This document shows positions 12,806-13,792 of a stretch of DNA of 34,640 nucleotides, piece by piece. The stretch covers positions 1-34,640 of the IMG/VR virus record IMGVR_UViG_3300032288_000616; one strand, 5' to 3'. The translations under genes were made by a program, and so were the position numbers. Under the pieces are notes generated by a model. That model searched no databases and was not told where the DNA came from. It saw nothing but the letters and a program-made list of their open reading frames with translations. The DNA is from a virus. Positions within the stretch are counted from its first letter, which is position 1. Every line of letters starts with the position of its first letter.

Positions 12806-12944
12806 AACTATCCATGTAAAAAAGTGAGTTACTAATCCGTGTTGGGTACTTCATAAAGTCCATACTGCCCGGTCTCGGCATCAACTTGAAACCTGTGTAT
12901 AACTTTGCAAATCTGTCTATCTTTTCTGGTTGCTTTTTCTTCAT
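12726..12944 (-). CDS. First gene of the leftward early operon, 72-aa basic protein
   Basis: ATG at 12944 has AGGA six bases upstream and is the first start after the leftward operator. The product begins MKKKQPEKIDRFAKLYTGFK and is strongly basic. Residues after about 46 (KHSTTDSDSDKRKRLDK) are low complexity and coincide with the overlapping HTH gene, 80 bases in another frame. Either this is a true overlap or the C-terminus is a read-on past a frameshift. The N-terminal part looks real. No family recognised. Confidence 0.5.
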   Translation of the reverse strand: MKKKQPEKIDRFAKLYTGFKLMPRPGSMDFMKYPTRISNSLFYMDSYGTDKHSTTDSDSDKRKRLDKCKGDS

Positions 12945-12960
12945 GTTGATTCCTATGCAG

Positions 12961-12996
12961 TTAAGATAGCTTAATACTTGTTTTATGTTTTAGCAA
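12961..12996 (-). promoter_or_regulatory. Operator and possible promoter of the leftward early operon
   Basis: TTAAGATAGCTTAA at 12961-12974 has perfect five-base arms (TTAAG/CTTAA). It sits 17 bases upstream of the first leftward start codon. On the minus strand a -35-like TTGCTA lies at 12991-12996, similar to TTGCAC in the rightward promoters, but the matching -10 is weak. The operator call is firm as a sequence repeat; the promoter call is tentative. Confidence 0.6.
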
Positions 12997-13104
12997 GTCG
13001 TTTTGATGTTGTATTTTTACAGTGTTATTTGTATAGATTCTTGAGACATAACTTCCCCAAGGGTGGTAAGCGTGTAGTTCCCTACGCTGTACCGACCTAT
13101 CCCA

Positions 13105-13154
13105 TATCTATTACAGAAGTTATGCACATATATTTGATTAAGCACAAATAGATA
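13105..13154. other. Candidate replication origin with two DnaA-box-like sites
   Basis: TTATGCACA at 13120-13128 matches the DnaA-box consensus TTATNCACA exactly. TTAAGCACA at 13138-13146, 18 bases on in the same direction, differs by one base. Both lie in an AT-rich stretch flanked by an 8-base perfect inverted repeat, TATCTATT (13105-13112) and AATAGATA (13147-13154). The segment is non-coding and near the centre of divergent transcription. Because no phage polymerase, primase or helicase is recognised, host DnaA-linked initiation is plausible (inference). Confidence 0.45.
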
Positions 13155-13330
13155 CCAGAGCTACACAGAGTGAATGTTCAATCGAGCTAGAGTCTTGTCC
13201 CACCATGTCCTCTAGTCTTGTGCTGTACCCATTTAAGTCAGCGAGGCTTGCTCACGGGTGTAGTGAAGCCTATGTTCTATTCCACGCCACCCATGTAGGT
13301 GCATTGTTATCGTATGGAGTACGAGACAAT
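13155..13330. other. Non-coding structured spacer
   Basis: No believable gene is present between the leftward early operon and the regulator. Several hairpins can be drawn: CTAGAG/CTCTAG at 13187-13192 and 13210-13215, and a two-part stem at 13244-13271 (AGGCT/AGCCT with inner TCAC/GTGA). A short direct repeat, CTAG-(AG)-TCTTGT, occurs at about 13187 and 13212. The frames on both strands here lack ribosome sites and recognisable protein features. This part may belong to the origin or to a longer RNA. Confidence 0.4.
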
Positions 13331-13448
13331 AAAAAAACCGCTTTAGGCTGTACCCCGTTGGACACCAAACCATATAGGTTTGACCCCCTTTCGGGGCGAG
13401 GCACATTCTAAAGCGGTCTTTCTCGTCGGGTGTCCAGTCCGACAATAT
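13331..13448 (-). ncRNA. Candidate structured small RNA ending in an intrinsic terminator
   Basis: On the minus strand this segment folds into nested stems. An outer 10-bp stem, ACCGCTTTAG (13408-13417) with CTAAAGCGGT (13337-13346), is followed by seven U (13331-13337). Inside it are CCCC-GAAA-GGGG (13385-13396) and CAAACC-TATAT-GGTTTG (13366-13382). A 5' hairpin has arms at 13425-13429 and 13439-13443. Its loop holds most of TGGACACC, which can pair over 8 bases with GGTGTCCA inside the outer stem, giving a pseudoknot or an alternative fold. A possible promoter starts it near 13448. It could also be the structured 3' end of the regulator mRNA. Confidence 0.55.
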
Positions 13449-13454
13449 GACTTA

Positions 13455-13483
13455 ATTATGTACTATTTTTTGTCTCAATGCAA
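13455..13483 (-). promoter_or_regulatory. Possible promoter for the structured RNA
   Basis: On the minus strand TTGCAT (13478-13483), 17 bases of spacer and CATAAT (13455-13460, five of six to consensus) predict a start near 13448, just before the first hairpin. The -35 overlaps the last codons of the regulator gene. The TTGCA-type -35 is shared with the two rightward promoters, which adds weight. Confidence 0.4.
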
Positions 13484-13696
13484 CTCAGGCCAAATTGTTT
13501 TCCAGCTTTCAGGAAAAATATCTTTTCGGTGTATCACGCCTTGAGACAGTCGCTCAAGTTCAGCAGCCATAAAAATCAGCTTGTCTGGCGGTATACCGTT
13601 ATTTTTCCACTGGCTAACAGCAGGAACACTGACCCCACACAACTTTGCAACCTTAGTTGTGCCCCCTAGAATCGAGATGATTTTACCGTTGTCCAT
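13475..13696 (-). CDS. Cro/YdaS-like repressor, 73 aa
   Basis: It is a single-domain DNA-binding regulator. Residues about 7-34 (ISILGGTTKVAKLCGVSVP then AVSQWKNNGIP) form a clear helix-turn-helix of the Cro/YdaS type, in which Q29 and W30 lie on the recognition helix. KDIFPESWKTIWPEL closes the protein. It is transcribed away from the ERF operon, the layout of a lambdoid cro or repressor. The operator-like TGTAGCTATCTTAA (13696-13709) abuts its start codon, which suggests autoregulation. It probably binds the 14-bp repeats reported in this window (inference). No cleavage or dimerisation domain of a CI repressor is present. Confidence 0.82.
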   Translation of the reverse strand: MDNGKIISILGGTTKVAKLCGVSVPAVSQWKNNGIPPDKLIFMAAELERLSQGVIHRKDIFPESWKTIWPELH

Positions 13697-13763: not shown

Positions 13764-13792
13764 TTGCACAATCTGTTTAGATAGCTTAATAT
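13764..13792 (+). promoter_or_regulatory. Rightward promoter of the ERF operon with operator
   Basis: TTGCAC (13764-13769), a 17-base spacer and TAATAT (13787-13792) form a promoter identical in both boxes and spacing to that at 16006. The operator TTTAGATAGCTTAA (13776-13789), one base from the perfect repeat, covers the spacer and half of the -10. Repressor binding would exclude RNA polymerase. Confidence 0.7.

Follow-up and report, generated by a model that had tools for sequence, protein, structure and literature searches.

A phage RNA family whose two-word pseudoknot interleaves with its own terminator

The window analysed here, a virus contig of 34640 bases, encodes on its minus strand (13331–13447) a structured RNA of about 117 nt that belongs to a well-supported RNA family bearing no name in the libraries searched; the literature consulted was open-licence only, so an earlier description elsewhere is possible. 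The family occurs in many environmental phage contigs, and its unusual two-word pairing crosses the RNA's own terminator. The structure of the family is firm; we infer a switch and its signal. With moderate confidence, drawn from the comparative and folding results, we propose that the RNA is a modular, cis-acting leader with a conditional terminator that would also yield a small RNA of about 118 nt.

Architecture and setting of the RNA in the window

The RNA begins with hairpin P1 (13423–13445, minus strand, like all RNA elements given here), predicted by folding and paired in 98.3% of the cells in relatives. Its loop holds word A, UGGACACC (13429–13436), which carries a U-turn UNR motif. The outer stem, P2, doubles as the terminator and consists of 15 pairs, a 2x2 internal loop and 9 further pairs. 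The P2a arms lie at 13408–13422 (5') and 13332–13346 (3'), the latter running into a tract of seven U (13331–13337) recognised from sequence and fold; the arms of P2b, the inner part of the stem, lie at 13397–13405 and 13349–13357. Both P2a arms and the 3' arm of P2b come from the fold and the consensus of the window subgroup of relatives, and the 5' arm of P2b from the fold and covarying pairs. Within P2 are a CCCC-GAAA-GGGG hairpin with a GAAA tetraloop (13385–13396; fold and subgroup consensus) and a second inner hairpin (13365–13383; fold and compensatory changes in the A2 alignment). Word B, GGUGUCCA (13359–13366), is the exact complement of A and stands directly 5' of the P2 3' arm. The minimum free energy (MFE) is -59 kcal/mol (z -6.55), which none of 200 shuffles equalled.

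This picture agrees with the initial annotation on the two inner hairpins, one with a GAAA tetraloop, and on the seven U, all of which lie at the minus-strand place given for them, as well as on the interleaving of the pseudoknot partners with the terminator arms, the A:B pair enclosing the P2 5' arm. Two details needed revision. The outer stem, put at 10 bp, is present but longer, and the loop does have its 8-base complement, but B sits in the apical loop region of the outer stem rather than within a paired arm.

The source genome is that of a lake-type phage. An open reading frame leaving one contig end resumes from the other with identical letters, so the genome is probably a circle or carries repeats at its ends. 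Immediately upstream of the RNA stands a Cro/YdaS-type repressor gene (13475–13696, minus strand; PF15943, PF14549), which bears out the earlier description of a phage-encoded RNA downstream of a repressor; the ERF and SSB genes are on the strand opposite to the RNA.

A promoter of the form TTGCAT-17-CATAAT had also been proposed. The letters are there, with a weak -35 element (13478–13483, 3/6 consensus match) overlapping the repressor stop codon and, after a 17-nt spacer, a -10 element (13455–13460) predicting a start at about 13448–13446, but in the window alone they do not exceed chance and become convincing only through relatives. In about half of 40 class A loci (the class of the window RNA, defined below), the end of a -10 hexamer lies exactly 7 nt upstream of the P1 anchor, and promoters scoring at least 9/12 occur in 57.5% of class A loci against 8.7% of shuffles. 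The upstream letters vary widely despite this fixed -10 position. No plus-strand (antisense) promoter was called across 13331–13447 by a simple consensus scan that also misses the weak minus-strand promoter.

Relatives and covariation

An ERF protein scan yielded 69 phage loci, and more came from repressor, DNA-pattern and ERF-alignment scans. Most loci read had a terminator-ended RNA behind the repressor, with very different letters. Members were chosen by the P2 arms alone, with A:B not required; of the 45 hits, four that looked unrelated on inspection were dropped, and 41 distinct RNAs remained. Every one of the 41 contains A-like and B-like complementarity (mean 7.7 nt, against 5.2 nt with halves swapped between RNAs), and in nearly all of them B keeps a constant distance from the 3' end. 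These swap controls rule out chance A:B complementarity. The whole architecture stands behind 19 of 31 repressor genes or regions and in 0 of 620 shuffles. Many related phages keep the RNA while nearly all of its letters change; these are sequence counts, which are not counts of independent events.

In the A3 alignment of 23 relatives, 97.9% of paired cells hold across P1, A:B and P2, with both-side changes at 20/34 pairs, a result reached by 0/500 shuffles; sliding the register by 1–3 columns lowers pairing to 40–46%. For the A:B pseudoknot itself, 99.4% of cells are paired and 6/7 pairs change on both sides. For the window subgroup (11 members), RNAalifold gave 31 consensus pairs, 11 of them with double changes. 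Because MAFFT shifted P1 by one base in this subgroup, its A:B pairing was scored on hand-anchored words, which matched in 81/88 cells, a level reached by 1/5000 whole-word shuffles.

A covariance model, R1, was built from A3, of which the window is not a member. It finds the window RNA over its full length (model positions 1–119; minus strand 13331–13452, 57.2 bits, E=2e-10). With this full-length match and an A:B complementarity in the 7–9 nt range between the P1 loop and the segment immediately before the P2 3' arm, the window RNA belongs to class A. Searching further loci with R1 returned 16 distinct RNAs, every one with a perfect A:B of 7–9 nt at the same offset (mean 8.25 against 4.82 swapped); several are close relatives of known members, and these are not 16 independent tests. 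Compensatory changes, on which the initial annotation had staked its proposal, are therefore abundant, including at 6/7 pseudoknot pairs and in held-out members. Its suggestion of a new RNA also stands, for no Rfam 15 family matched at the gathering threshold, the best hit below it being a microRNA model with 20 of 90 bits.

U-tract hairpins are common behind genes, and the element could in principle be an ordinary terminator of the repressor gene with complementarity arising by chance. We consider this highly improbable: the A:B words change in a compensatory manner, a covariation that already contradicts it, the RNA has its own -10 box, it is also found away from any repressor, and a second class has two pseudoknots.

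Protein and DNA-pattern scans of bacterial genomes found no true relative. The RNA was seen in 0/398 Pseudomonadota genomes, in a scan that had no positive control and is thus uninformative on hosts. Named-phage matches comprised only two uncultured records, from Manatee Spring; the nearest named terminase, that of Rhodoferax phage P26218, is only 46% identical, and the RNA is absent from that phage and from Methylophilales phage Venkman.

In loci L097–L102, an RNA behind the repressor follows the same plan in other letters, with A:B words of 8–11 nt, for example AGTTCTCTCCT, and may represent a third class. In locus L121 (8872–8944 and 8956–9097), the RNA has a tRNA gene immediately before it.

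A second class and the downstream payloads

Class B has no obvious letters in common with class A and the same plan: a P1 loop word beginning UUGG, a B word, a long P2 and a U tract. Both-side changes occur at 23/36 pairs. It has an additional pseudoknot, in which the linker 5' of P2 pairs with an inner hairpin's loop; here 5/5 pairs change on both sides, but only 82% of cells are paired. Across both classes, word A has U at position 2 and a purine at position 4 in 70/70 sequences, and locus L256 contains one RNA of each class.

The U tract of class B stands 11–14 nt before an ATG in 22 of the 26 RNAs with an open reading frame, and 22–23 nt before it in 3 more. The genes that follow encode DUF1376 or HNH proteins or have no Pfam match. 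The gap is too short to hold another promoter, so transcription of these genes must pass through the RNA. The fixed distance of 11–14 nt between the terminator and the start codons of several unrelated genes is the reason for favouring a cis-acting leader over a free-standing small RNA.

Behind class A RNAs there is mostly no protein gene but a larger noncoding stretch. In the window this is RNA-2, a structured noncoding region directly downstream (13045–13326, minus strand) with double changes at 23/38 consensus pairs, which is probably transcribed by read-through from the first RNA. RNA-2 (about 280–300 nt) has no Rfam match and has relatives in L002, L003, L029, L078, L022, L111, L121, L124 and L145. 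The two RNAs occur together even where the surrounding genes are unrelated.

A near-palindrome, TTAAGnTAGCTTAA (TTTAGATAGCTTAA at 13776), recurs beside gene starts at 12961, 13776 and 16018 of the window. It is a probable operator of the Cro/YdaS-type repressor, which would give the gene at 12944 its own control. As this next protein gene seemingly has its own operator/promoter (12961), only RNA-2 clearly depends on read-through in the window.

Other loci have different RNAs in the same slot. The Betaproteobacteria-1 RNA (RF02932) occupies it in L116 (2200–2316, plus strand), L012 (3177–3302, minus strand) and L016 (54–179, minus strand), from about 12 nt (in L116) to 80 nt behind the terminator of the RNA family. 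It has a separate fold that the window RNA does not match, and in the window another RNA takes that slot. A third noncoding type is seen downstream in L115, L190, L219, L028 and L024; it contains ...GTGTGACCCGCACG... and ...GGTGGGTGGGTATAAGGGTAGGGG... and had no Rfam match in the loci scanned.

Some class A RNAs have no repressor beside them: in L124 the RNA lies between virion genes, in L116 and L145 it is next to terminase genes, and there are further settings of this kind; the gene names are read from translations. The RNA can be regarded as a movable leader before very different phage genes and other unnamed RNAs.

Candidate modes of action

Transcription would start just before P1 from the RNA's own promoter and would also enter from the repressor gene. 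Once made, word B could pair with word A in the P1 loop, and this fold, enclosing the P2 5' arm, would compete with the terminator. As the P2 3' arm emerges, P2 could take over, terminating transcription at the U tract and releasing the RNA of about 118 nt; otherwise the polymerase would read into the payload, RNA-2 in the window or a protein gene in class B. We infer that the choice is regulated, most likely by trans pairing of the released small RNA, or by a phage protein. Neither a conserved pocket nor a leader peptide was found that could identify the signal.

The comparative evidence supports the P1, P2 and A:B pairings, the -10 position and the fixed place before the payload. It is the folding energies that suggest the order, A:B first and P2 later: in 5/5 RNAs, the MFE structure of a transcript cut after B has A:B paired, whereas that of the full transcript has P2 (nested-structure energies). 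The truncated and full transcripts are thus predicted to favour different folds, as the switch between terminated and read-through states proposed in the initial annotation requires. Simple helix lengths point the same way. P2 has 22–24 pairs (about 62 Å) and P1 plus A:B would reach about 36–42 Å with a linker of 1–2 nt, so A:B and full P2 should be mutually exclusive within a single molecule. Because the two also interleave, the RNA is best read as a leader with two competing folds, one terminated and one read-through.

An attenuator has two folds that compete, of which one is an intrinsic terminator, and the energy model predicts such a pair here. It also stands between a promoter and a payload, no second promoter intervening; class B fits this order, and in the window RNA-2 comes directly next, followed by a gene with an operator-like site. 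Class A counts against a leader in that it occurs in varied contexts and so is not tied to one operon. If the switch is real, the RNA would be a compact device for timing phage gene expression.

The geometry that disfavours A:B in cis beside full P2 also speaks for a tentative alternative, a self-recognising small RNA that would engage other copies of itself in trans by A:B kissing, as a dimer, a ring or a control on nascent leaders. Such kissing would provide dosage control or superinfection immunity, in the manner of plasmid copy-control RNAs or the immunity RNA of phage P4. The 32 distinct class A words are each strictly matched to their own complement, and between two near relatives the RNA shares only 48% identity, against 93–96% for the repressor and RNA-2, as expected of a specificity cassette; on the other side, compensatory drift alone could diversify the words. 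The U-turn, whose signature is present in word A of all 70 sequences, is a hallmark of loop-loop antisense RNA recognition (PMC4485353). Against action in trans, no second target was seen in the window, where the 8-nt words A and B occur outside the RNA at about chance frequency. A version that joins trans pairing to the leader, in our view somewhat unlikely, would give each phage a matched word pair whose released RNA kisses its own kind and sets termination of the same leader, making it a cassette-swapped counter or immunity tag. If trans recognition is real, it would be a new RNA basis for phage self-recognition.

Known RNAs offer partial parallels to such recognition. The P4 CI RNA, or C4 antisense RNA, is a short phage RNA related to an early leader, and its pairing causes premature termination. 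The window RNA has no Rfam C4 match and a different fold, and its own action in trans is only putative. The pRNA of phi29 is a phage RNA with conserved intermolecular loop pairings. The phage RNAs ROOL and GOLLD assemble through kissing loops, likewise with conserved intermolecular loop pairings (PMC12286853); the window RNA matches none of these three in Rfam, and oligomerisation is only a possibility here. Plasmid leaders under antisense control (attenuation in pT181 and pIP501; rep of IncI, IncB and IncK) are alike in their alternative folds, U-turn loop recognition and specificity set by the loop (PMC4485353, PMC10724649). They differ in that here one RNA carries both words, the end under regulation would be a terminator and no promoter was called on the opposite strand.

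A further reading, which we judge quite unlikely, takes the RNA as a scaffold or decoy for a phage or host protein, either the polymerase, as for put RNA of phage HK022, or a defence protein, with the terminator merely ending the transcript. Conservation of shape with variable letters and the varied genomic contexts agree with it, but no stretch of sequence is constant apart from the UNR motif and the outer pairs of P2. Binding to the zinc-binding domain of polymerase beta' marks membership among put RNAs. The position is comparable: the window RNA lies just behind a Cro-type gene, and putR, a phage RNA site near an early promoter whose RNA acts on termination, is found about 270 nt past the start of PR (PMC9378689). 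In contrast, put RNA has two stem-loops in about 70 nt and suppresses distant terminators, with no pseudoknot or built-in terminator described (PMC9378689), whereas the window RNA differs in size and fold and has its own terminator and a covarying pseudoknot. None of put, the plasmid antisense systems or ROOL/GOLLD is a family match for the window RNA.

Several other candidates were rejected. Type III toxin-antitoxin RNAs are tandem pseudoknot repeats before an endoribonuclease toxin gene; the window has a single copy without tandem repeats, and no toxin gene follows the class B RNAs tested. HDV-like ribozymes have a similar order of A, P2, inner hairpins and B, but here the hairpin whose loop contains A has a stem that covaries, and on inspection the catalytic junction between B and P2 is absent. 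A 70-aa open reading frame (13233–13445) is interrupted by stops in relatives, and no tRNA or tmRNA was found.

Between the repressor and the RNA, a run of hairpins is conserved in L003, L008, L013–L015, L019, L025–L029 and L115. It comprises GAAAC..GTTTC, GCCC-AGCUUUA-GGGC and CACCG-GAAAGA-CGGTG, with apparent compensatory changes in the arms; it overlaps the promoter spacer, is preceded by CCTTTAGCAAGC and may be a nut-like antitermination site.
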